Below are positions 10,127 through 56,142 of a DNA stretch of 64,000 bases, piece after piece (within the stretch, counting starts at the first letter, position 1; the number at the start of each line of letters is the position of its first letter). The stretch is from positions 1,354,673 through 1,418,672 of the forward strand of contig NZ_CP035282.1 in the NCBI RefSeq assembly GCF_004103715.1, in the 5' to 3' direction. Source of the stretch: Acidilutibacter cellobiosedens. GTDB taxonomy: Bacteria; Bacillota; Clostridia; Tissierellales; Acidilutibacteraceae. Both the position numbers and the translations under genes were made by a program. A model generated the notes under the pieces. The model was not told the origin of the DNA. It worked only from the letters and a program-made list of their open reading frames with translations, and searched no databases.

Positions 10127-12313
10127 TTGGAAAGAAAGGAATATACATTTGGAAAAACCATAGGAGGCTGGCGTTCTGATAAATCTCAAACTGTAACTTT
10201 TATAGTCACTGAAGATTGTAATCTCAGATGTAAATACTGTTATGTAACACATAAATCTTCTGATAAAAGAATGAACTTTGAAACCGCAAAAAGATTTGTG
10301 AATTATCTTTTGAATTCTGATGATTTAAGATATTCTGAAGCTCTCATTTTGGAATTTATTGGTGGGGAACCTTTTTTAGAAGTGGAACTTATCGACCAAA
10401 TATGTGATTACTTTAAGATTACTGCATTTAAACTAAACCATGATTGGTATTGGAATTACAGAATAAGTATTTGTACAAACGGGGTTAATTATTCGAATCC
10501 TGCCGTTCAAAATTTTATAAATAAAAATAGGAACAAAATTTCAGTTACAATTTCTTTGGATGGTACAAAGGAGAAACACGATTTAAATAGAGTTTTTCCT
10601 GACGGTTCCGGTTCTTATGATACAATTAACAAAAATTTGAATTTATGGTTAAGCCAATTTAGAGGAACGACAAAATCAACTTTTGCAAGTCAGGATTTAC
10701 CATTATTATATGAAAGTATAATTTCACTTTGGAACAAAGGAATAAATGAAGTTAGTGCAAATGTAGTATTTGAAGATGTTTGGAAAGAGGGAGACGACAA
10801 AATTTTAGAAGAGCAGCTTATAAAACTTGCGGATTATGTAATTGAAAATGAATTATATGATAAAGGATTTTACTGTTCATTTTTTGATGAATCAATAGGT
10901 TTTCCGTATACCGAAGAAGATATAAGCAGAACCTACTGTGGGGCAGGGAAAATGATATCTTTCAACCCGAGTGGTAATATCTATCCATGCTTAAGATATT
11001 ATGGACATTCGTTGAATAACCATAAAGAATGGGTACTTGGGAATTTGAAGGATGGGGTTGACATGGAAAAAGTCCGTCCTTTCGTTTTATCCACAAACAG
11101 AATTCAAAGCGATGAAGAATGTTTGAATTGTGAAATCGCCACGGGTTGTGCATTTTGCCAGGGGTTTAACTATGATGAAGCGCCTACTCCCACAAATTTT
11201 TATAGAGCAAAATATATCTGTAAAATGCACAAGGCAAGAGTTAGGGCAAATGACCATTATTTTTCAAAGCTTTATAATCTTTGTGATATAGAAAGAAGTA
11301 ACGGACAAGCTTTAAAAAAACAAATTTATTTCTTATTATCCGATGACTATGTGACTTATTGTTCATATAAAAACGAAAGTAAAACCGATAATATTATGGA
11401 AGAAGATGAAATCATAAGTGGCCTAAAATTTGCACGACAAAACTTTTTAAGACCCGTATTTGTGCATTCAAATAATAGTTTTGACTTTAAGAATATAAAG
11501 GAATATTTAAATTATGATATTCTGCACATAGTTCCAGCAAAGTTTTGTGAAACTGCAAAAGAAATTGGCCTAAAGAGGATTTTACCAGTTTATGATTTGG
11601 AGAGTGTAAAAAAATCGGATTCATTTCAAGAGAATATAATATTAAATATAAATTCAGATGAAATAGAGGAATTATCGGAATGTCTAAAAACATTGTTTAA
11701 AAATTGTAATCGTATAAACCTTAACATAATAGGACTTGATAAAAATTTTAACGAAGAAGTATATCGTTTCCAAATGAAAAAAATAAGCAAATTTTTAATT
11801 GAGGAATTGGGAAATAACGGAGTTTTAAAAGAACTTAATTTACTTACAGATACAATTTTTCTTGACAAACATGAAAATTGTATGGCTGGAGAAAACGATT
11901 TCATCGTGTCTTCGAAAGAAAAAATTTATACTTGTTGTGCGGAATATTCAAATAACCCTGATGAATTTATAGGCGATTTGGAAAGGGGAATTTTTAAAGA
12001 TTACTCAAAAAGATTATATGAAATAAAAAATAGCAACTTATGCAGAATTTGCGATGCATATCAATGTAAAAACTGTGTATATATCAACAAATTATATACA
12101 AATGAGGTCAATGTTTCACCATCTTTTCAATGCAGAAAAAGTCATATAGAAAGAGATATATCAATTGACATTTTAGAAAAACTAAAGATTTTATCGGAGA
12201 AAATTGAATTGCCTCCTATAAGAGAAATAAAGAAGAAAGACTATTTAGATCCCATTTACAAGTTCTCTGATAATATTGAGAATCTTATAGGATATTACAA
12301 ATATAATAGATAA
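10127..12313 (+). CDS. Radical SAM CXXX-repeat peptide maturase (fusion)
   Basis: This 728-aa protein modifies the Cys-rich precursor encoded at 14921. The N-terminal half is a radical SAM domain with CNLRCKYC (C31, C35, C38 bind the 4Fe-4S cluster) and the GGEPF SAM-binding motif. A SPASM-like Cys cluster follows (CGAGK near 271, YPC near 291, CLNCEIATGCAFC near 333-346, and C near 364). The C-terminal half (about 395-690) looks like the separate 'CXXX repeat peptide maturase' family and has its own Cys set (CCAEY, CRICDAYQCKNC, QCRK). In other genomes I recall these two halves as separate genes, so this appears to be a fusion. The start is TTG 10127 with AAGGAG 8 bases upstream. Confidence 0.8.
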   Translation: MERKEYTFGKTIGGWRSDKSQTVTFIVTEDCNLRCKYCYVTHKSSDKRMNFETAKRFVNYLLNSDDLRYSEALILEFIGGEPFLEVELIDQICDYFKITAFKLNHDWYWNYRISICTNGVNYSNPAVQNFINKNRNKISVTISLDGTKEKHDLNRVFPDGSGSYDTINKNLNLWLSQFRGTTKSTFASQDLPLLYESIISLWNKGINEVSANVVFEDVWKEGDDKILEEQLIKLADYVIENELYDKGFYCSFFDESIGFPYTEEDISRTYCGAGKMISFNPSGNIYPCLRYYGHSLNNHKEWVLGNLKDGVDMEKVRPFVLSTNRIQSDEECLNCEIATGCAFCQGFNYDEAPTPTNFYRAKYICKMHKARVRANDHYFSKLYNLCDIERSNGQALKKQIYFLLSDDYVTYCSYKNESKTDNIMEEDEIISGLKFARQNFLRPVFVHSNNSFDFKNIKEYLNYDILHIVPAKFCETAKEIGLKRILPVYDLESVKKSDSFQENIILNINSDEIEELSECLKTLFKNCNRINLNIIGLDKNFNEEVYRFQMKKISKFLIEELGNNGVLKELNLLTDTIFLDKHENCMAGENDFIVSSKEKIYTCCAEYSNNPDEFIGDLERGIFKDYSKRLYEIKNSNLCRICDAYQCKNCVYINKLYTNEVNVSPSFQCRKSHIERDISIDILEKLKILSEKIELPPIREIKKKDYLDPIYKFSDNIENLIGYYKYNR

Positions 12314-12604: not shown

Positions 12605-14872
12605 ATGAAAATAAGCGAAAAGGGAAAACAAACAGTACTTATAATTGCAATAATAGCAGTAGTTGTTATAGGATTTGTTTTGTTAAATAAAACCGGGAAA
12701 GAGGATAATGAAAAGCAAGAAGTTTCTAAGAATGCAACAGATACTGAAGAGGGGGAGCTTCATTATAAGGAAGAATCAAGGGGAGAAGAAGTTTTTGAAG
12801 ATATAAAATACATTAAATTTCTGAAATTTAAAGATAAACCCGTAAGACTTTCAAAAAATCCCCAAAATAACAAGATGTCTCTTATGGATATGAAAACAGG
12901 AGATTTAATCTATGAATTTCCCAATGAAGAAATGTATAAGGGAGACGGAATTTGGATAGATGAGGAAGGTATATCTTGGACAATAAAGTATGATGATGAT
13001 TTAAAAAAAATTTTAGTGAAATCCTTTGATGAAACAGGAAAGGAAATAAATCAAGCTGTTGAAATTGAAAATTTTGAGGGAACTTTATTTGAAGATTCGG
13101 GCTTACATATTGAAAAGTTCAAATGCGATGAAAGATATTTATATATTCTTTCCTATTATAAGGATAAGGAGAGTAAAAAGACCTACAGATCACTTCAGAT
13201 ATATAGCAAAGATGGGAAACTTCATAATACTTATAATAATGATACCGTTTCAATATATGACTTTGACGTAGACGGTAAAGGAAGTGTATATATACAAACA
13301 GAAAAATCATCCCATGGGCCTTCAAGTATTAACAAGATAAATATAGAAGATGGACTTTTGGAATATCTCATGCCTTCGGAAGGAGAATTTATAAAATATA
13401 GCAGAGAAAAAAATCATGTTTATATTTCAAGTCCGTCAGGAGAGGCAATACGGGAATACGATATAAATAATAAAAAAGAATCGGGCGTTGTATTTACCTT
13501 CGGAAAGGATTCCACAGTTCTTGGGAAAAGTCCCGAAGGTACGATAACGGATTTTTTCGTAGGAAAAAATAATGATTTTTATATTGCTATTACACCTTAT
13601 GAAGAAGACGAACCATACAAATTCTTTGCATACAGAGAAAAGGAGAAAAAGAATAATGCCGATAGAGCCGTAACTTTGACGATTACAGCACCTTATAGGC
13701 AGGACTTTTTGGCATATGCAATAAAATGCTACGAGATTAAGTATCCGGAGGAAAAAATAGAATATGATTATATTTACAACAATCGTGAGGAATATTTGGA
13801 AAACAATGAGCAATATGGGAAACAATTGACAATGAAAATTCTTTCCGGAGAAACCGGGGATGTTGTTATGACAGGTGGGGCAGGACTTGTTTACAGGGAT
13901 TTGTTTAAAACCGATGCATTTGAAGATTTGACATCTTTCCTTGAAAAAGATCAGAAGTATAAAGATTTAAATAAGAGTGTTTTGAATGGAATAAAAATAA
14001 ATGATAGAATTCGTGGACTTCCCATAAGCTTTATAGGCTATTATTATCAAGTAGATGACCAGTTGGCTGAAAAGTTGGGTTTAAATTTGGATTATGATAA
14101 TTTGAAGTGGAGTGAAGTTTTAAAACTGACAAAGATAATAGAAGAAAAAGAACCCGATGCACATTTATTTACAACTATAGAAGAAAAAGAAGATATGTTG
14201 ATTACAATACTAATAGCAAATATGCCAGACTTAATTGATCTTGAAAAGAAAGAAGCAAATTTAAATCAGAAATGGTTTATAGAGTTGATAAAAGAATTGA
14301 AAGAGTGTCTTAAAAGTCCAAACTTTGCGAAGACAGTAGACGAATTAGGAGATGATTGTTTACAAGGTTCATTATTTTGCAGCTTAAACAATAACAAGGG
14401 GCCAGGTGCTGACCTGTATCTTTTTGAAAAGTACAACGAAAAAAACAGAAGTAGTATAATCCCCATATTTACGGGTGAGAAAAACAGTAATCGAGTTGCA
14501 TATACAAATAATATGTATTCAATAAACGGCCGTTCTCAAAGAAAGAAAAATGCATGGAAATTTCTAAGCTTTCTTTTAGAAGAAGAGATTCAGGCATATA
14601 CCTGGGTTCCTGGAAGCCCTATAAATACGTCTGGAGAAGACAAGTATATTAAGGTTGAGGAAAAAGAGATGATAAATATGAATAAAGAAATTTCGAGAAG
14701 ATTTTATAAAGAACGAAGAGAAGCTTATAAAAATATTGATTATCTTTATGATATGGATTACTTTAAAAAAGATATTTCAGATCCGATTATGGAATATTTA
14801 GATGATAAAATCACAATAGAGGAAGGGATAGAAAAGGCGCAGGGAAATGTGGATTTAAGGCTTAATGAGTAG
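12605..14872 (+). CDS. Membrane-anchored solute-binding protein with N-terminal propeller-like region
   Basis: This 755-aa protein starts with one membrane helix (residues about 10-27) and no lipobox Cys, so it is probably tethered outside by an uncleaved anchor. Residues about 60-340 contain repeated beta-strand-rich segments (for example LLEYLMPSEGEFIKYSREK) suggesting a beta-propeller. From about 355 (VTLTITAPYRQDFLAYAIKC) to 680 it resembles family 1 extracellular solute-binding proteins. It lies between the RiPP genes and pairs logically with the sugar-type permeases and ATPase further down. Domain calls are from pattern reading; the ligand is unknown and could be the modified peptide itself or a sugar. 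Confidence 0.7.
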   Translation: MKISEKGKQTVLIIAIIAVVVIGFVLLNKTGKEDNEKQEVSKNATDTEEGELHYKEESRGEEVFEDIKYIKFLKFKDKPVRLSKNPQNNKMSLMDMKTGDLIYEFPNEEMYKGDGIWIDEEGISWTIKYDDDLKKILVKSFDETGKEINQAVEIENFEGTLFEDSGLHIEKFKCDERYLYILSYYKDKESKKTYRSLQIYSKDGKLHNTYNNDTVSIYDFDVDGKGSVYIQTEKSSHGPSSINKINIEDGLLEYLMPSEGEFIKYSREKNHVYISSPSGEAIREYDINNKKESGVVFTFGKDSTVLGKSPEGTITDFFVGKNNDFYIAITPYEEDEPYKFFAYREKEKKNNADRAVTLTITAPYRQDFLAYAIKCYEIKYPEEKIEYDYIYNNREEYLENNEQYGKQLTMKILSGETGDVVMTGGAGLVYRDLFKTDAFEDLTSFLEKDQKYKDLNKSVLNGIKINDRIRGLPISFIGYYYQVDDQLAEKLGLNLDYDNLKWSEVLKLTKIIEEKEPDAHLFTTIEEKEDMLITILIANMPDLIDLEKKEANLNQKWFIELIKELKECLKSPNFAKTVDELGDDCLQGSLFCSLNNNKGPGADLYLFEKYNEKNRSSIIPIFTGEKNSNRVAYTNNMYSINGRSQRKKNAWKFLSFLLEEEIQAYTWVPGSPINTSGEDKYIKVEEKEMINMNKEISRRFYKERREAYKNIDYLYDMDYFKKDISDPIMEYLDDKITIEEGIEKAQGNVDLRLNE

Positions 14873-14920
14873 AGTTGTATACCCAAGAGGTATTCACAAT
14901 ATATTTAAAGGGGGGATATC

Positions 14921-15103
14921 ATGACTTACGAAAGCAAGCTAAAAAAAACAAAGGTTTCGATTTCGCCTATGGCGTGCACAGATTGCGGAAATATATGTTC
15001 AAGCGGTTGCGGAAATAAATGCCGAGATGGTTGTGCTACTTTTTGTGCAGATCTCTGTAAGATTGATGTAGGTATACAAGCTATGAATGATCTGGAGAAG
15101 TAA
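14921..15103 (+). CDS. CXXX-repeat RiPP precursor peptide
   Basis: The 60-aa product has a charged leader (residues 1-17), then cysteines at 19, 22, 26, 30, 34, 38, 42 and 46. The last seven are spaced exactly four residues apart (CGNIC, CSSGC, CGNKC, CRDGC, CATFC, CADLC). A short tail ends DLEK. The regular spacing and the radical SAM/SPASM maturase in the same locus make it a substrate for thioether-type modification (sactipeptide or ranthipeptide class). Which atoms are linked cannot be read from sequence. A very strong ribosome site (AAAGGGGGG) precedes the ATG. There is no GG-type cleavage site and no dedicated protease nearby. Confidence 0.85.
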   Translation: MTYESKLKKTKVSISPMACTDCGNICSSGCGNKCRDGCATFCADLCKIDVGIQAMNDLEK

Positions 15104-15108
15104 CGAAA

Positions 15109-15140
15109 CAGCCTTGCAATTATTGATGATTGCAAGGCTG
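15109..15140 (+). promoter_or_regulatory. Hairpin between precursor and exporter genes
   Basis: A 12-bp perfect stem with an 8-base loop (arms 15109-15120 and 15129-15140) begins 5 bases after the precursor stop. There is no T-run, so it is more likely a processing or 3'-stabilising hairpin, or a weak attenuator, that raises precursor mRNA over the downstream exporter, as in many RiPP operons. Confidence 0.6.
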
Positions 15141-15197: not shown

Positions 15198-16964
15198 ATG
15201 AAATCTAATAAAAATAAAGAAGATAATGAAAAGCTAAAGGTTTTTATTAAAAAATACATTTCTCCGAAAAAAAATAGATTGGTCTTTTTAGTCTTGATGA
15301 TATTCGGTGGAACTTTTATAAAAAACATAAATCCGTATTTATATGGTAAAATGCTTGACAGTATTTCCTCTTCAAATATGGAATATTTAATAAAGCTGAT
15401 TGTCATATATTTTGTTGTAACAATATTTACAACTTTATTAGGGATTTATGAAGACTATTTAGGCCAGACCTTGAGTTTTAAAGTGTCAAAAAGTGTTCAA
15501 AAGAATATGTTTGATAAAATAATAAGACTTAAAACAAAGGTCTATGATAAATATGATACAGGGGAATTTATGTATCGTTTAAACGGAGATTCCGATGAAA
15601 TAGTTTCATTTTGCATAAATGTCATTACAAGTTTTTTGCATATAATAGTTAATATCGCCATTTCATTGTATTTTGTTTTCAAAATTTCAACCCAATTAAC
15701 TTCGGTAGCGGTTTTTTATATTCCTGCTTCTTTTGCGGTGACATTTTTATCAAGAAAATATTTTAAAGAATTAGCAAAAAGAAGGAAAGAGTATAATGAT
15801 AAATATTATAGCTTTCAAAATGAAATATTTTCAAATAATACAGGGATTAAAAGTTATATGCTTGAGGATTCGATGAATGAAAAATTCAAAAATTTCATCT
15901 CAAGAGATTTTAAAATTTTAAAAAGATCAATTTTTTTAAATAATACAGTTGATCTTTTGAATAATTTAATAACTGTTATTTCTTCATTATATGTAATATA
16001 TTTATCTGCTATTTTAATAAGGTCAAATTTACTGACAATAGGAACAATGGTTTCATTTAACACATATATAAATAATCTTTTTTCTTCCATATCAGAAGTT
16101 TTGAAATTAAATATAAGTAAACAGAATGTCATTATATCTTTAAACAGAGTAAATGAAATTATGTCTAAGAGTAGTGAAAAAAGAGAAACTCCAGGAAATA
16201 ATTTTTCTTTAAAAAATATAAATTTTGAGGGAAATGAAATTTATTTTAGATATAGTGAAAAAGATAAACCGGTTTTGAATAATTTTTCATTTGAAATATC
16301 ATCCTTCGGATTTTATGGCTTTGTAGGAAAGAATGGTTGTGGGAAAAGCACAATTGCAAAATTGTTGGTAAAATTATACGATGTTGAATACGGGGAATTG
16401 AAGCTTAATGGAGAGAGCTATAAGGATATACCAAAAGAGAAACTAAGAAGAAATATAACCTATGTACAAAAAGAAGACTTTTTCTTTGATGATACTGTAT
16501 TAAATAATATAAAATTTGGGAATCCTGTTGCAAGGGATGAAGAGGTAATTGAAATGTGCAAAAAGGTTGATTTGGATGAATATATAAATACACTTCCCCA
16601 AAAATATGAAACTGTAATCGGAGAGGGAGCATCAATACTTTCAAGTGGGCAAAAACAAAAACTTAGCATTGCCCGTGCATTACTAAGGAATACAAAAATA
16701 TACATTTTTGATGAAGTGACTGCAAATTTAGACGGAAAATCTGAAAAACTTATAATATCTGTTTTAAAGGAATTAAGCAAAAATTCTGTAGTAATTTTTA
16801 TAAGTCATAAAGTATCTTCAATCATAGAAAGTGATGAGATATTTTTAATTGATGAAGGAATCGTAGCAGAAAGGGGAAGTCACAATTATTTAATTCAGAA
16901 TAGTAAGCTTTATTGCGAGCTGTTTAAAAATATAGATTTGAATATTAGAGAGAAGGTGACTTAA
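15198..16964 (+). CDS. ABC exporter of the CXXX RiPP locus
   Basis: This is a 588-aa half-transporter. The N-terminal 320 residues have about six membrane helices (for example NRLVFLVLMIFGGTFI near 32). The ATPase domain has Walker A GKNGCGKST (about 376), a signature LSSGQKQKLS (about 481, Ser in place of the first Gly) and Walker B YIFDEVTANLD. Its position directly after the precursor suggests export of the modified peptide. It lacks a C39 peptidase domain, so leader removal must be done elsewhere or does not occur. It abuts the next permease gene. Confidence 0.85.
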   Translation: MKSNKNKEDNEKLKVFIKKYISPKKNRLVFLVLMIFGGTFIKNINPYLYGKMLDSISSSNMEYLIKLIVIYFVVTIFTTLLGIYEDYLGQTLSFKVSKSVQKNMFDKIIRLKTKVYDKYDTGEFMYRLNGDSDEIVSFCINVITSFLHIIVNIAISLYFVFKISTQLTSVAVFYIPASFAVTFLSRKYFKELAKRRKEYNDKYYSFQNEIFSNNTGIKSYMLEDSMNEKFKNFISRDFKILKRSIFLNNTVDLLNNLITVISSLYVIYLSAILIRSNLLTIGTMVSFNTYINNLFSSISEVLKLNISKQNVIISLNRVNEIMSKSSEKRETPGNNFSLKNINFEGNEIYFRYSEKDKPVLNNFSFEISSFGFYGFVGKNGCGKSTIAKLLVKLYDVEYGELKLNGESYKDIPKEKLRRNITYVQKEDFFFDDTVLNNIKFGNPVARDEEVIEMCKKVDLDEYINTLPQKYETVIGEGASILSSGQKQKLSIARALLRNTKIYIFDEVTANLDGKSEKLIISVLKELSKNSVVIFISHKVSSIIESDEIFLIDEGIVAERGSHNYLIQNSKLYCELFKNIDLNIREKVT

Positions 16965-17762
16965 ATGAAAAAAAGTAAGATGAATGTATGGCTCTTTATT
17001 CTTCCCGGGTTTATAGGAGTTCTTTTGTTCTATATTATCCCGTTTTTTATGAGCCTTTATTATACTTTTACAAAAGGTGTAACAGATGTTCAATTTATCT
17101 GGTTTGAAAACTTTAAGGATTTAGTCGGGAATCCTACATTTGAGCTTGCAACAAAAAACACGTTGAAGTTTATTTTAATCGGTGTTCCATCGGTTACCTT
17201 ACTTTCGTTATTTTTAAGCCTACTGATGTCGGATAAGCTTTATGTCTTCCCAAGATGGGCAATGCTTTCACCTATAATCGTTCCTGTTGCATCAGCACTT
17301 ATGAGCTGGAAAACATTATTTGACAATGAAGGAATTATAAATAAAATAATACAATTATTTGGGTGGAACACAGTAGATTTCTTAGGAGGAAAGCATGCAA
17401 TGGGGTTTTTGATCTTCATTTTTATAATAAAAAATATGGGATATATGCTTGTAATATTCACAGGTGCAATCTCATCCCTTGAAAAGGAATACAAAGAAGC
17501 ATTTCTTTTGGATTCAAATTCAAAACTAAAGTATTCATTTAAAATAGTAGTACCTTTAATTACGCCAATAATATTTTTTGTCGTAATATTCAGTATAATA
17601 AATTCCTTCCAAATGTTCAGAGAAGCCTATGGGCTTTATGAAAATTATCCACCAAGTACAGCCTATCTGTTACAGCATTTTATGAACAACAATTTTTTAA
17701 AGCTTAATTATCAGAGATTAAGCACCGCCGCTTTTATATTGGTAATAGAATATCCATCCTAA
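16965..17762 (+). CDS. Sugar-type ABC permease (MalF-like), C-terminal frameshift
   Basis: This is a 265-aa inner-membrane permease of the carbohydrate/binding-protein-dependent class: LFILPGFIGVLLFYIIPFFM at the N-terminus, and EKEYKEAFLLDSNSKLKYSFKIVVPLITP, the EAA-type loop that docks on the ATPase (with S and K replacing parts of the usual EAA-G motif). After residue 259 the frame changes. The neighbouring frame reads RISILISVFLNFQKKFQKN to a stop at 17815, which is the natural family end, so one base has been gained or lost. The core is complete, but the partner permease downstream is broken. Confidence 0.75.
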   Translation: MKKSKMNVWLFILPGFIGVLLFYIIPFFMSLYYTFTKGVTDVQFIWFENFKDLVGNPTFELATKNTLKFILIGVPSVTLLSLFLSLLMSDKLYVFPRWAMLSPIIVPVASALMSWKTLFDNEGIINKIIQLFGWNTVDFLGGKHAMGFLIFIFIIKNMGYMLVIFTGAISSLEKEYKEAFLLDSNSKLKYSFKIVVPLITPIIFFVVIFSIINSFQMFREAYGLYENYPPSTAYLLQHFMNNNFLKLNYQRLSTAAFILVIEYPS

Positions 17763-17815
17763 TATCGGTATTCCTAAATTTTCAAAAAAAGTTTCAGAAG
17801 AATAGGGAGGGATAA

Positions 17816-18602
17816 AAAATAAAAAAATATTGAAAATATTTTAATATATTTTATATCAACAATATGTCTTCTTCCTATGATAATAATGATAATAAATTCC
17901 TTCACAGATTTAATGGGGGTTCAGCCTAATACAATACGGAAAAGTTCTATTCCAAACTGAAGACTTTTTCAGAGGATTTTGGAATTCAGCAATCTACATC
18001 TTTATAATCATCGAATAAATATTCCCCCTAAGCTTGCTTGGGGCATACGGATTCAGCAGATTCGAATTCAAGGAAAGAACTTCCTATATTGGCTATACAT
18101 AGTCTTAATGCTAATGCCTTTTCAAGCAACTATGGTGCCTCAATATTTAACCCTAAAAGCGCTAAACATAATAGACAGTCCCAGTGCAGTAATACTGCCT
18201 AATATATTCTCAACCTTCGGAACAGTTCTAATGGTACAGTATATGAAGAAGGATGGACAAAGAAATATATGATGCAGGAAGAATAGACGGGCTAAGCGAA
18301 TTCAAACTATTTCTAAAAATAGTATGCCTTTATGTCGTTCAATAATATCCGCACTTACAGTTCTATATTCGTACACTACTGTCAATGGTAGAACAACCTT
18401 AGTCCTTTATAAGTGACAAGTGACTATATGCCTTGTCAGTAACCTTAAATGCAACAGGAGAATTAGAGAGAAATATCCTTCGCACAGGAACAGTATTCAG
18501 TATAATGCCAGTATACTCCTATACCAATTTTCCTATGAGGATTTACACAGGGGAATAAGCTGGTCATCAGGGCTGGAAGGTTATATGAAAAAATTTATAT
18601 AA
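17816..18602 (+). pseudogene. Decayed sugar-type ABC permease (MalG-like)
   Basis: Pieces of one permease lie in alternating frames: FISTICLLPMIIMIINSFTD, then RTSYIGYTXXLMLMPFQATM-type sequence, DSPSAVILPNIFSTFGTVLM, EIYDAGRIDGLSEFKLFLKI (the EAA-type ATPase-docking loop), LSMVEQP, LSVTLNATGELERN, and a C-terminal EDLHRGISWSSGLEG. At least five frame changes and several in-frame stops are needed to read it. The parts appear in the normal family order, so this was a full-length second permease. It is not functional as encoded. Confidence 0.8.
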
Positions 18603-18611
18603 CGAAGTAAA

Positions 18612-19083
18612 GGAGAGAAGAACCCAAAACAAAAATTAGGAAGAGGAATCAATAATATTTATGGCAGCAATGCTATCGTTCACCTTAATCACACAAAAAA
18701 TTTCCTATATCATGGCACCTGAAGTAGAAGTAACAAAACAAAAAGAGGAGAAATAACAAAGATCCCTTTGATAAAAAAGTGAATCTTAGGAATCTACGAT
18801 ACTATAGTACCCAACAGTGCAATTCACACAGAAGGAGAAAATGTATCTATGTAATATCGAAGAAAAATCCATAAGAAAAAGAGACCAACTAGTGAGAATA
18901 AATGTGAAGATAGAAGCAACAAACGGATATGAAACAGCAATAACAGGAGTTCTTCCATATAATTCAGAAGTAGTAAAATGGACGACAAAACCTCTAAGAG
19001 AAGGAATGAACGTAAGAGTAGTAGAAGGAAGAGGTGAAAAAATGAAGAATAGAAAAGAAAAAAATAAAATCAAAATAACTTAA
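18612..19083 (+). pseudogene. Decayed secretion adaptor (HlyD/RND-like)
   Basis: Fragments in order read FMAAMLSFTLITQKISYIM (a membrane anchor), APEVEVTKQK, YDTIVPNSAIHTEGE (the typical adaptor VPxxAI motif), VYLCNIEEKSI, then an uninterrupted 88-codon piece (18817-19083) with RDQLVRINVKIEATNGYETA and KPLREGMNVRVVEGRGEK. Several frameshifts separate them. Such adaptors pair with MacB/FtsX-type ABC permeases, and the next remnant is one. The upstream part of the adaptor is short, suggesting an internal deletion. Confidence 0.65.
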
Positions 19084-20195
19084 TATAATATTGTCAGTTC
19101 TAACCCTTTTGCTATTCTTAATACAAAGAAATATAAAAAAAGAATCACAAAAACTTTCCTTCAAAGATTGAAATAATATTTGAAGAAAAAAACGAAATCT
19201 ATCAGAAAACTAATGGGCGGAAGGAAAATAATAGAAGAAAAATATATACTATCTGAAACCGAAGAAAAGGATATATCTTTTGAAGGAAAAAATATAGCAT
19301 AATAGGAATAGATGAAAACTACTCTCAAATAAATAATATAGAAATTGCCTCTGGGAAATGGATAACAGGAGAAAATCAAATACTCATAGTGAAAAATTTG
19401 TAAAAGAAACAAATGACTCTTTTTCTTTAGGAGAAACGATGGACATATTCGGAAAAAAGTATAAAATAGTCGGAATATATGAAAATGATAAATACTCAAA
19501 ATCAAAAATAGAAAATTTATATGTAAAAAAAGAAGATATCCCAGAAAATTTAGGAGAGGGAGAAAAACATTTTACAGTCTTGAAGTCAAACCTAAAGATG
19601 AAAACAGAAAAAACTTTGTAAAAGAAAAATTTTTGAAGACGTAAAAATAATTTCAACAGAAGAACAAGAAGAAATAAAAATCGCAGACTTTACAGAATCA
19701 AAGAGAAATCTATCAAAATACTATTATGGATTTATATTTATATTTGAAATTATAGTATTAATATTGCTTACAGTATACCTAATAAAGTCCATAAAATTAA
19801 ATATAAAAAAGTATCAATTTGGAACAAAAAGAAAATACGGAAAGGAACTTCTTTCGGGAAATATGACAATAGTGTTATTACAAATACTAAAAACATTATT
19901 ACTGATATTTCTTTGGATATTTCTATTAAGATTAATATTAGAGTTTAAACTATCAACCCCAAGCAGATTTTTACCGCCTACGGATATATTTGACTTCAAA
20001 TTTTACTCTCGAATTGAAAATATACTTAGAGAAGAATATGGAAAAACCGTTGCAGGATATGGAAAGATATATACAAATCTTATGAGAGTAACAAAGAAGT
20101 ATTTTATAGAATCGGTTATTTTACTAATAGCATTATTATCAGTTTCAATAAGCTATATGTGTGGGAAGTTTAAGACGGCAGAAAGAAAACTCTAA
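19042..20195 (+). pseudogene. Decayed FtsX/MacB-like ABC permease
   Basis: The start region (ATG 19042 after GAGGTG) reads MKNRKEKNKIKIT and then, in other frames, ILSVLTLLLFLIQRNIKKES, GIDENYSQINNIEIASGKWI, SEKFVKETNDSFSLGETMDI and DFTESKRNLSKYYYGFIFIF. The last 143 codons (19764-20195) are open, with three membrane helices typical of the C-terminus of FtsX-type permeases. About five frame changes break it. The GETMDIFGKKYKIVGIYEN segment resembles the MacB periplasmic core. Confidence 0.7.
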
Positions 20196-20226: not shown

Positions 20227-21330
20227 ATGGGAAGGCTATCGTTTAGAAATATAAAAAAAACGTATAAAGGAAATATTCAGGCAGTAAAGGATTTTAACCT
20301 TGAGGTTGAAGATAAAGAATTTATAGTTTTGGTAGGTCCATCCGGTTGCGGAAAATCCACAATACTTCGTATGGTTGCAGGATTAGAGGAGATAACAGGA
20401 GGAGAATTATATATAGATGATGTATTGATGAATGAGATTTCTCCAAAGGACAGAGATATTGCAATGGTGTTTCAAAACTATGCTCTTTACCCCCATATGA
20501 CAGTCTACGAAAATATGTCCTTGGGTTTAGAGCTTAGAAAAGTACCTAAGGATGAAATTGCAAGAAAGATAGAAGAAGTTGCAAAAACATTGGATATAAA
20601 GGATTTATTAAACAGAAAGCCGAAAGCCTTATCAGGAGGGCAACAGCAAAGGGTAGCTCTAGGAAGGGCAATAGTAAGAAATCCAAAAGTATTTTTAATG
20701 GATGAACCTCTTTCAAACTTGGATGCAAAACTAAGAGTTCAAACGAGGATAGAAGTAATAAAATTGCATAATGAATTGGAAACAACCTTCATATATGTAA
20801 CCCATGATCAAATCGAAGCAATGACAATGGGAACGAGAATTATAGTAATGAAAGACGGATGTATCCAACAAGTAGCAACACCTAAAGAGCTTTATTATAA
20901 TCCTTCAAATATATTTGTTGCAGGTTTCATAGGAAGTCCGCAAATGAACTTTATAGATGTAAATGTAGAAAAAATTGAAGATATAGTTCATCTCAAAACA
21001 AAAGAAATAGAAATAGAATTAAACAAAAAGAAAAGTAAAAAAATTGAAGAAGGAGGATATATTGCTAATAAAATAGTAATAGGAATAAGACCGGAAAGTT
21101 TAAATCTTATAGAAGATTCTTCAATTACAGCAAATTATATAGAAGGAAAGGTAGACGTTATAGAAATGGTAGGTGCTGAAAGCTTTATACATTTAATAAT
21201 AGGAGACGAAAAGATAGTTGCAAAGATAAATTCAAAAGAAGAGCATAGAAAAGGAGATATTTTAAAGCTTAGTTTTGACTGTGAAGATATTTATTTATTT
21301 GATAAAGAAAGTGAAAATGCAATAGAATAA
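20227..21330 (+). CDS. MsmX/UgpC-type sugar ABC transporter ATPase
   Basis: This 367-aa ATPase energises binding-protein-dependent sugar importers. Walker [10 protein letters not shown] is at residues 36-44, followed by [16 protein letters not shown] (Q-loop), the signature [14 protein letters not shown], Walker [17 protein letters not shown], and the switch His in THDQ. A C-terminal TOBE/OB-like regulatory domain (about 235-360, with [10 protein letters not shown]) is complete. It follows the decayed permeases by about 30 bases with its own AGAGGAG site. MsmX-type ATPases can serve several importers, which may explain why it stays intact while its neighbours decay. Confidence 0.9.
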
Positions 21331-21418: not shown

Positions 21419-21904
21419 TTAACAGAGCTTACTTATCACTCCGCAGCCCAATCTTTTCCCTGAATTTCCCGTAGGCTGAGTCCTGTAATCGTCGGGATTT
21501 TGGTGTATTATTATGGTTTTTCCTATTATGTCGGCGGGCTTAAATTTATTTGTGAAGAAAATCATCTTTGCATAGCCGCTGTTGGAAAACAGTACGGGGA
21601 AGTCCCCAGCATGATTTCCGTGGGGCTGATTTGTGGGATTCCAGTGACTTCCTGCCGAGAGAAAGGGATCTGACGGATCTCCTATTTCGCATGTATTTCC
21701 GTCGTGTATATGAAATCCGTGAGGACCTATGGGCATGGTACTGTTATGAGCAGGAGTATATGGTGGAAGCCCCCATACTTCCACGTGTACTTCGGTCCCG
21801 CCACAAACATTTAAGAATTTTACTTCGCCGTATAAATTAGGTTGCAGCGGACCTCCGTATATATAAGCTATTGCATTATCGCTGCAGCAATAATTATAAT
21901 CCAT
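21419..21904 (-). CDS. Cu/Zn superoxide dismutase family protein
   Basis: This 161-aa protein keeps the metal-site pattern of Cu/Zn SOD: H65 and H67 in PHGFHIHD, bridging H87 in SHWNP, zinc-site H95, H98 and D101 in PHGNHAGDFP, copper His in KTIIIHQNPDD, and the active-site Arg with disulfide Cys in GKRLGCGVI. It would convert superoxide to hydrogen peroxide and oxygen. No signal peptide or lipobox is present, unlike most bacterial members, which are exported; an N-terminal CC pair and further cysteines are present. A GGAGG site precedes the ATG. It could be a cytosolic or spore-associated enzyme. Confidence 0.9.
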   Translation of the reverse strand: MDYNYCCSDNAIAYIYGGPLQPNLYGEVKFLNVCGGTEVHVEVWGLPPYTPAHNSTMPIGPHGFHIHDGNTCEIGDPSDPFLSAGSHWNPTNQPHGNHAGDFPVLFSNSGYAKMIFFTNKFKPADIIGKTIIIHQNPDDYRTQPTGNSGKRLGCGVISKLC

Positions 21905-42156: not shown

Positions 42157-42295
42157 AAAAAAACCTCTTTTCGGAAGAAAGAGGACTATATCCCCTCTCA
42201 TCTCTCGGCAAGTATTACCGTAGGAATTGGCACCTTGTATTTACACAGGTTGCCGGGTTTCATCGGGCCAGTCCCTCCACCTCTCTAGATAAGAG
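42157..42295 (-). promoter_or_regulatory. SAM-I riboswitch with terminator, upstream of metNIQ
   Basis: On the minus strand the aptamer (42295 down to about 42195) has P1 CTCTTAT/ATGAGAG, AGAGAGGTGGAGGGA, GGCCC, GATGAAACCCGGCAACC, and AAGGTGCCAATTCC, all SAM-I (S-box) hallmarks. It is followed by a terminator hairpin (about 42185-42157: GTCCTCTTTC, loop, GAAAAGAGG, then seven T). S-adenosylmethionine binding should stop transcription of metN-metI-metQ. Confidence 0.96.
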
Positions 42296-55825: not shown

Positions 55826-55916
55826 AATATCACCAAAATAATTATATCATTTTTTAAAATAATTGTTTTATATTTTTAAATATTTGTGTATAATAAATAT
55901 AACAAGTAAATATAAA

Positions 55917-56142
55917 AGCTGAGATCAAGAATAGTAAATATGAAAAAGGTCTTTAGAGAGTCGGGGATAGTGAAAACTTGACGATACTTTCATATTGAAT
56001 GGGCTTGAGAGTTAAAATCCGAAAATCGAGTAGGATTTTACGGTTTATCGCCGTTAAAGATTTAAGTGGGTTTTTAACCAAATTGAGTGGTACCGCGAAG
56101 TTGCCTTTCGTCTCTTTATATGAAGAGATGAAGGGCTTTTTT
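55917..56142 (+). promoter_or_regulatory. T-box leader (Trp) upstream of trpS
   Basis: Stem I has AGAGAGTCGGGG and the specifier region TTGAATGGGCTTGAGAG, with TGG (56000-56002) as the Trp codon. The conserved T-box sequence AATTGAGTGGTACCGCG (56081-56096) pairs with uncharged tRNA CCA. A terminator (56103-56141: GCCTTTCGTCTCTT, loop, GAAGAGATGAAGGGC, T6) follows. A TATAAT at 55889-55894 is the likely -10. Low charged tRNA-Trp should allow readthrough into trpS. Confidence 0.93.

Follow-up and report, generated by a model that had tools for sequence, protein, structure and literature searches.

The maturase locus and its neighbours

In the window, a stretch of 64,000 nucleotides from Acidilutibacter cellobiosedens, a gene for a peptide of 60 amino acids (14921-15103) is located in one gene run with a radical-SAM maturase, a TIGR04116 protein and an ABC exporter, all transcribed from the plus strand. 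The maturase (10127-12313, 728 aa) consists of a radical-SAM domain, a SPASM domain and a C-terminal CXXX_matur domain (TIGR04115 and TIGR04119), and is followed by a CXXX repeat peptide modification system protein (TIGR04116; 12326-12589, 87 aa), a two-domain solute-binding protein (12605-14872, 755 aa; PF01547, 31.3 bits, cut-off 26), the peptide gene with a hairpin behind it (15109-15140), and the exporter (15198-16964, 588 aa), which carries membrane and ATPase domains (PF00664 and PF00005) and no recognised peptidase domain. Further downstream on the same strand are a truncated MalF-type permease (16965-17762; 265 aa against 283-289 in relatives, with 70% identity to residues 4-264 of the 283-residue MalF of the relative G061), a broken MalG-type permease (17796-19038), a remnant of an accessory membrane protein that matches only part of the sequence of its relatives (19653-20195), and an intact MalK-type ATPase (20227-21330, 367 aa; PRK11650, 485.9 bits, cut-off 432). 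A protein encoded on the other strand just downstream of the cluster (21419-21904, minus) is presumably a Cu/Zn superoxide dismutase, as judged by motif. Elsewhere in the window, a SAM riboswitch (42195-42295, minus) lies upstream of genes that by eye resemble an ABC transporter, and a T-box leader (55912-56118, plus) upstream of a gene that by eye resembles tryptophanyl-tRNA synthetase.

The maturase scored 487.6 bits against TIGR04115 (cut-off 350) and 227.9 bits against TIGR04119, the model of the C-terminal maturase domain (cut-off 150), and the 87-aa protein scored 62.9 bits against TIGR04116 (cut-off 50). Because both proteins exceed these cut-offs, the window holds a CXXX-repeat radical-SAM peptide locus by the NCBIfam enzyme definition (TIGR04114-TIGR04119), and the proposal of the first-pass annotation that the small gene encodes the precursor in a radical-SAM peptide system is upheld by the presence of maturase and exporter in its gene run. 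Three groups of maturase cysteines were invariant in 17 of 17 aligned sequences: 31/35/38 of the SAM cluster, eight in and after the SPASM region (271/288/332/335/341/344/365/412), and seven near the C-terminus (585/603/639/642/647/650/669). Since the spacing of these last seven (585/603, 639/642, 647/650 and 669) mirrors that of SPASM (271/288, 332/335, 341/344 and 365), the TIGR04119 domain looks, from its sequence, like a second SPASM domain. TIGR04119 was matched at E 0.001 by 95 of 100 relatives and above cut-off by six of the 100, a difference which may be due to the SPASM-like nature of the domain. For the TIGR04116 protein, a strand-helix-helix-strand-strand fold was predicted with a mean pLDDT of 91.9; Foldseek gave no clear match to this model (best E 0.39), and the best VIA-align match had a Z of 8.0 over 68 residues at 3.7 A, a value that helical models reach without kinship.

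The solved structure closest to the maturase by sequence was 5wgg (E 4.8e-27), which we take to be the SCIFF maturase CteB. The enzyme, with its two SPASM-like cluster domains, is expected to cross-link core cysteines of the peptide to nearby residues as thioethers. The formation of alpha-carbon thioethers, as in sactipeptides, instead of beta or gamma ones is considered unlikely, because the enzyme, although it belongs to the same superfamily and is matched by the RumMC profile (70.7 bits, far under the cut-off of 720), scores higher against the PapB profile NF047865 (199.9 bits, cut-off 340) and the SCIFF profile TIGR03974 (128.1 bits, cut-off 425), neither of which is reached.

A second, complete locus was identified in the same genome (G000:C1, maturase match at 1582624; L017 and L048), in which the genes are arranged in the order of maturase, TIGR04116-like protein (L017, 10773-11036), precursor, binding protein, precursor, binding protein, precursor, exporter, MalF, MalG, a 377-aa MacB_PCD protein and MalK. 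The three precursors of this locus share the leader of the window precursor. All four components of a MalFGK-type system (binding protein, both permeases and ATPase) are full-length in the second locus and in G061. The window copy lacks such a complete set: MalF is truncated, and MalG, which has 37% identity to the G061 protein, carries 6 stops within the match in frame 3 and 23 within that in frame 1. The broken permeases imply that the whole window copy may be decaying and that any transporter step would have to rely on the second locus, which is complete. The maturase, TIGR04116 protein, binding protein, exporter and MalK of the window all align to their G061 relatives without stops.

The precursor and its repeat units

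The precursor gene is preceded by a G-rich ribosome-binding site (14907-14915, AAAGGGGGG), and a G-rich stretch was found upstream of all eight precursors compared within the sub-type, that is, the loci in which the precursor is accompanied by a binding-protein transporter. The translation, MTYESKLKKTKVSISPMACTDCGNICSSGCGNKCRDGCATFCADLCKIDVGIQAMNDLEK, can be divided into a leader (residues 1-18), a Cys repeat as the presumed core (residues 19-46, 14975-15058) and a tail (residues 47-60). Cysteines are located at positions 19, 22, 26, 30, 34, 38, 42 and 46, as the first-pass annotation had described with its CxxC pair at 19 and 22 and its steps of four residues from 22 to 46; the seven cysteines it counted are those in register, and eight are present when Cys19 is included. 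A run of seven cysteines in steps of four was obtained in none of 200,000 shuffles of the peptide, the longest run being six, in five shuffles. Within its own family this layout is not the unusual one that had been supposed, since 160 of 184 Cys-to-Cys gaps in the precursors of 17 relatives are also four. The accompanying idea that the sulfurs line one face of an alpha-helix fails on geometry: each step of four turns 40 degrees, so that the seven cysteines sweep 240 degrees, with a mean resultant length of 0.27.

The leader motif M[STA]Y.[SN]K is conserved across all eight sub-type precursors, and the tail motif VGI.AMN is present also in one precursor of G025 (G025_p2), with looser versions in G061 and the other G025 precursor (G025_p1). 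Eight cysteines in the window precursor compare with 10-16 in its relatives. In the profile search the window precursor stayed under every curated precursor cut-off, scoring 20.4 bits against TIGR04118 (the AC3_0185 family precursor, cut-off 35) and 20.0 bits against TIGR04117 (the Syntroph_Cxxx precursor, cut-off 50), and the other seven precursors of the sub-type were likewise under these cut-offs; a precursor from another CXXX cluster (L073) gave 49.5 bits with TIGR04118. With respect to the NCBIfam CXXX-repeat system, the window agrees in the maturase, its C-terminal domain and the TIGR04116 protein, all over their cut-offs, and in a nearby peptide whose cysteines are spaced four residues apart, seven in register, but differs in that none of eight sub-type precursors exceeds a precursor cut-off and in that a binding-protein transporter and 3' hairpins are added.

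A regular Cys-rich sequence and an uptake-type transporter in the sub-type would also suit a metallothionein-like metal chelator with free thiols, the maturase serving something else or only trimming. This is very unlikely, given that such precursors occur near a full-length CXXX maturase in four loci (the window, the second locus, L009 and G061) and in G025 near a damaged one, and that conservation extends beyond the Cys part to the leader. Taken as a whole, the reading frame at 14921-15103 is best explained, with high probability, as the precursor of a CXXX-repeat radical-SAM RiPP, the modified product of which would be secreted by the exporter. Counting against it are the precursor scores under every curated cut-off and the departure of the window precursor from its relatives in the number of cysteines and in the polar residues of its units. 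Most likely, the window system is a member of the CXXX radical-SAM family and represents a sub-type marked by a hairpin behind the precursor gene and by an accompanying transporter.

The distribution of polar residues within the repeat units bears on the position of the cross-links. Asn, Asp, Ser or Thr stands directly before the next cysteine in 97 of 160 units from the precursors of 17 relatives (52 of 80 within the sub-type) and in none of the six units of the window precursor; instead, one of these residues stands two positions after the cysteine in all six window units, as does D21 of the initial CTDC, compared with 61 of 160 units in the relatives and 28 of 80 in the sub-type. In the precursors of the second locus, polar residues are found at the last position of the unit more often than in the window. 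The contrast in repeat units between window and relatives gave Fisher p values of 0.003-0.005, to be read as those of a post hoc choice with non-independent units. According to a review, Asn, Thr and Asp serve as acceptors in SCIFFs and NxxcA, and CteA is linked from Cys32 to Thr34, where earlier work had assigned Thr37 (PMC8326336). The same two-residue spacing is where the first seven cysteines of the window peptide have Asn, Asp, Ser or Thr. On the basis of these polar residues and of the Cys32-Thr34 link of CteA, it may be suggested, if weakly, that the window peptide is linked from Cys(i) to residue i+2, which would give the seven links C19-D21, C22-N24, C26-S28, C30-N32, C34-D36, C38-T40 and C42-D44 and leave C46 free. 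SCIFF systems, in which the closest solved maturase structure is found, differ from the present one in the Cys pattern and in the TIGR03974 score of 128.1 of 425 bits. The ranthipeptides PapA/PapB and freyrasin have in common with it multiple cysteines, a regular four-residue motif and a radical-SAM maturase (PMC9413430, PMC8326336), but the motif is Cys-X3-Asp/Glu there and Cys-X3-Cys here, where the PapB profile gives 199.9 of 340 bits and the chemistry is a predicted one. A helix was at first suspected from the CX3D spacing by the authors on PapB as well, who then found a broad tolerance (PMC9413430).

The smaller number of cysteines and the shift of polar residues within the units, together with the breakage of MalG and the accessory gene, the truncation of MalF and the completeness of the second locus, could also indicate that the window copy is a relic, its precursor and permeases decaying together while the second locus does the work. 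This alternative is a possibility of some weight, albeit the less probable one, as the maturase, TIGR04116 protein, binding protein, exporter and MalK are free of stops against G061, and the precursor has retained its hairpin, ribosome site and leader.

The hairpin behind the precursor genes

The hairpin at 15109-15140 (plus strand) was identified by folding; it begins 5 nt past the stop codon of the precursor, and consists of 14 pairs and a loop of 4 nt, the stem being formed, from its base, by 12 Watson-Crick pairs and then one G-U and one A-U pair beside the loop. The 63-nt stretch that holds it has a folding energy of -21.7 kcal/mol (z -5.8), which was equalled in none of 200 shuffles. The 12 nt on its 3' side, CATACATATATG, contain no T-run. 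The first-pass annotation was thus correct in placing a hairpin without T-run directly after the stop, and fell short in the stem, given as 12 pairs instead of 14.

With the criterion that the best 50-nt frame within 100 nt past the stop reaches -20 kcal/mol or better, a hairpin was found at all eight sub-type precursors (-21.1 to -27.1 kcal/mol). Of 34 ends of other genes in these operons, one reached this level, that of the G061 binding-protein gene (-20.2). Many of the 34 are directly followed by the next gene, a position at which hairpins may be disfavoured on other grounds, and the set excludes the ends of the TIGR04116 genes of the second locus and L009 and those of the broken window genes. 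As a partly independent control, three of 52 gene ends in the window reached -20, two of them being the two sides of one stem. Because the binding-protein genes of G061 and, by eye, of G027 are followed by a stem, the element does not occur exclusively behind precursors. As a general feature of CXXX precursors it was rejected, since two of 12 precursors from other CXXX clusters (G974_p1 and L015) have one by the same criterion. The hairpin sequences vary between loci. In the three paralogous hairpins of the own genome, three of 18 pairs are changed on both sides, a modest count that comes from three rows only and was reached in 36 of 500 shuffles, and 96% of cells pair, as compared with at most 61% when slid. 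The stem of one paralog, own2_p3, contains mismatches, its longest unbroken stem being seven pairs.

Such a strong stem directly past the precursor stop codon could be taken for a transcription terminator or attenuator that parts the precursor from the exporter mRNA. A role of this kind is decidedly unlikely, as no T run longer than three is present in the 12 nt past the listed stem of any of the eight sub-type hairpins, and the window hairpin is absent from the seven terminator-like sites detected by the terminator scan of the window; the terminator reading was thus not favoured. It had also been proposed that the hairpin raises precursor over exporter mRNA. Its constant company with the precursor, in eight of eight cases, fits a raised or protected message; the comparison with the exporter is too narrow, because the hairpin follows the precursors whichever gene comes next, this being the exporter in four cases, the binding protein in three and the TIGR04116 gene in one. 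The simplest reading of these sequences is that the hairpin would act at the RNA level as a 3' protective or processing element, keeping the level of the precursor message high within the operon. The structural genes of bacteriocins often carry such stems. A literature search on hairpins behind bacteriocin structural genes returned nothing on point.

Relatives and the companion transporter

The distribution of the system was examined in genomes of the order, the class and the phylum. The maturase domain was detected over cut-off in 13 genomes of the order, in six of 391 genomes of the class sample (including the present genome, G000, and G034 of the same order) and in one of 398 genomes of the phylum sample, which is G000 itself; it is thus rare outside the order. 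In a tree of 17 loci, with one full-length maturase each, the four full-length maturases that are accompanied by the transporter formed a single clade (support 100/98). Left out of this tree were G025, G132 and G974, with damaged or cut maturases, and L011-L016, in which the radical-SAM and C-terminal parts are separate genes.

The binding protein was matched in five of 249 genomes of the order, the match spanning its length in G000, G025, G027 and G061 and only part of the SBP half in G978; a MalG homologue was found in the same four genomes (E 1e-60). No match to the binding protein was found among plasmids. The whole gene set, with a single precursor, is found in G061; in L009, a Clostridiaceae MAG, it is present over the part retrieved, which does not include the MalK end. 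In G025 two precursors and an intact transporter are present, and the maturase lacks about residues 119-441, with a frame change. G027 has full-length frames for binding protein, MalF, MalG, accessory protein and MalK, preceded close to the end of the contig by no more than scraps of a maturase; neither exporter nor precursor was seen in the 12.2 kb read.

In the sub-type binding proteins (743-759 aa), a hydrophobic helix at the N-terminus is followed by a middle part and then by an SBP_bac_1 part. PF01547 matched all seven members, for the N-terminal halves of which Pfam named no propeller family. The window protein, with 39-41% identity to six relatives, likewise shows an N-terminal hydrophobic helix, a strand-rich part and a C-terminal SBP_bac_1 part, its helix and strands (the latter at about 80-345) being taken from a poor model with a mean pLDDT of 41.6, built on a two-row alignment. 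In profile searches, MalG of the second locus scored 30.8 bits (cut-off 26.4) and its MalF 26.2 bits, just under the same cut-off. Among the accessory proteins of three relatives scanned, a MacB_PCD domain was recognised in L048 and L077 and not in L052. The sub-type MalG has a C-terminal extension, absent in MalG of G152 and G325, that by eye resembles the end of HlyD-type proteins. Because of these MacB- and HlyD-like parts, the direction of transport is not to be taken for granted.

In the class sample, the binding protein was matched in seven of 341 genomes, G000 included. The neighbourhoods in G152 and G325 were read and those in G178 and G379 left out, and the matches in G206 and G111, on contigs of 5.6 and 3.1 kb, say little. 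G152 encodes a binding protein of 703 aa, MalF, MalG, an HlyD-like protein of 431 aa, a MacB_PCD protein of 462 aa and MalK. A distance of about 14 kb separates this set from a CcpM maturase (TIGR04068, 631.9 bits, cut-off 500), beside which are a TIGR04066 protein (395, cut-off 200), a two-domain binding protein of 723 aa and an exporter; further binding proteins, intact or in pieces, occur in the region. The likeness to the CcpM system (TIGR04068/TIGR04066) consists in the two-domain binding protein beside the maturase and the transporter set at that distance, but the maturase belongs to another family and the precursor of G152 is a candidate only: a Cys-rich reading frame of 84 aa (L109, 16822-17076, minus) that could be a precursor and matches no family. 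An AgrB protein is also present in the region of the CcpM maturase (G152:C33; L106, L108 and L109). In G325 (L107, 7103-17176), two proteins of 863-866 aa, with SBP_bac_1 in the one scanned, are followed by MalF-, MalG-, HlyD-like and MacB_PCD proteins, the set being without MalK; no recognisable peptide maturase was found in the 19 kb read, three proteins of which were scanned. The occurrence of like sets in G152 and G325 indicates that the transporter is not confined to CXXX systems, and this transporter type is found to accompany two different radical-SAM Cys-peptide systems. A literature search on binding-protein transporters in radical-SAM peptide clusters found none.

Several features were observed in CXXX loci other than those of the sub-type. 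CXXX precursors on MAG contigs labelled Bacteroidales (L013, 4876-5124), Chlorobiota (L014, 849-1088), Prevotella (L015, 7657-7902) and Bacteroidaceae (L016, 7663-8022) carry near their start RR[EA]F[FL]K and a hydrophobic stretch, like a Tat signal, L015 matching the TAT_signal profile under its cut-off. In the other CXXX clade a subtilase-like protein, which could be a leader peptidase, adjoins the maturase (L073, 12131-12826, by PF00082; L049, 3265-4002, and L074, 11923-12585, by eye); none was noticed in the window cluster. Seven closely related maturase loci (family f4: L051, L078, L079, L080, L081, L082 and L084) yielded no long Cys-repeat precursor with the Cys-repeat filters.

The co-encoded binding-protein transporter might act on the secreted peptide or on its cargo, a step proposed here with more reserve than those of cross-linking and export. 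One tentative model, improbable rather than probable as it stands, is a siderophore-like cycle of secretion and retrieval, in which the cross-linked CXXX peptide would be secreted and bind a ligand outside, such as a metal, a glycan or another, and the peptide or its cargo would be taken back by the two-domain binding protein and the MalFGK-type transporter extended by MacB/HlyD-like parts. G025 and G027 have kept the transporter and lost the maturase, and the window has lost the permeases with a complete copy elsewhere in its genome; these losses, seen in few genomes, resemble the pattern to be expected if the secreted product were a shared good.

Profiles exist for CXXX-repeat peptides, which have been little studied: a literature search under the name and the model numbers of the system yielded nothing relevant among the matches listed, and the papers drawn on here deal with other radical-SAM peptides (PMC8326336, PMC9413430, PMC10352776, PMC9484694). 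The peptide of the window offers a testable map of cross-links, and the hairpin behind each sub-type precursor gene examined is a plain, testable RNA feature. The sub-type hints at a role other than killing, its transporter being found with two maturase families and outliving the maturase in two genomes. If retrieval of the secreted peptide or its cargo does take place, the peptide would be a shared good.
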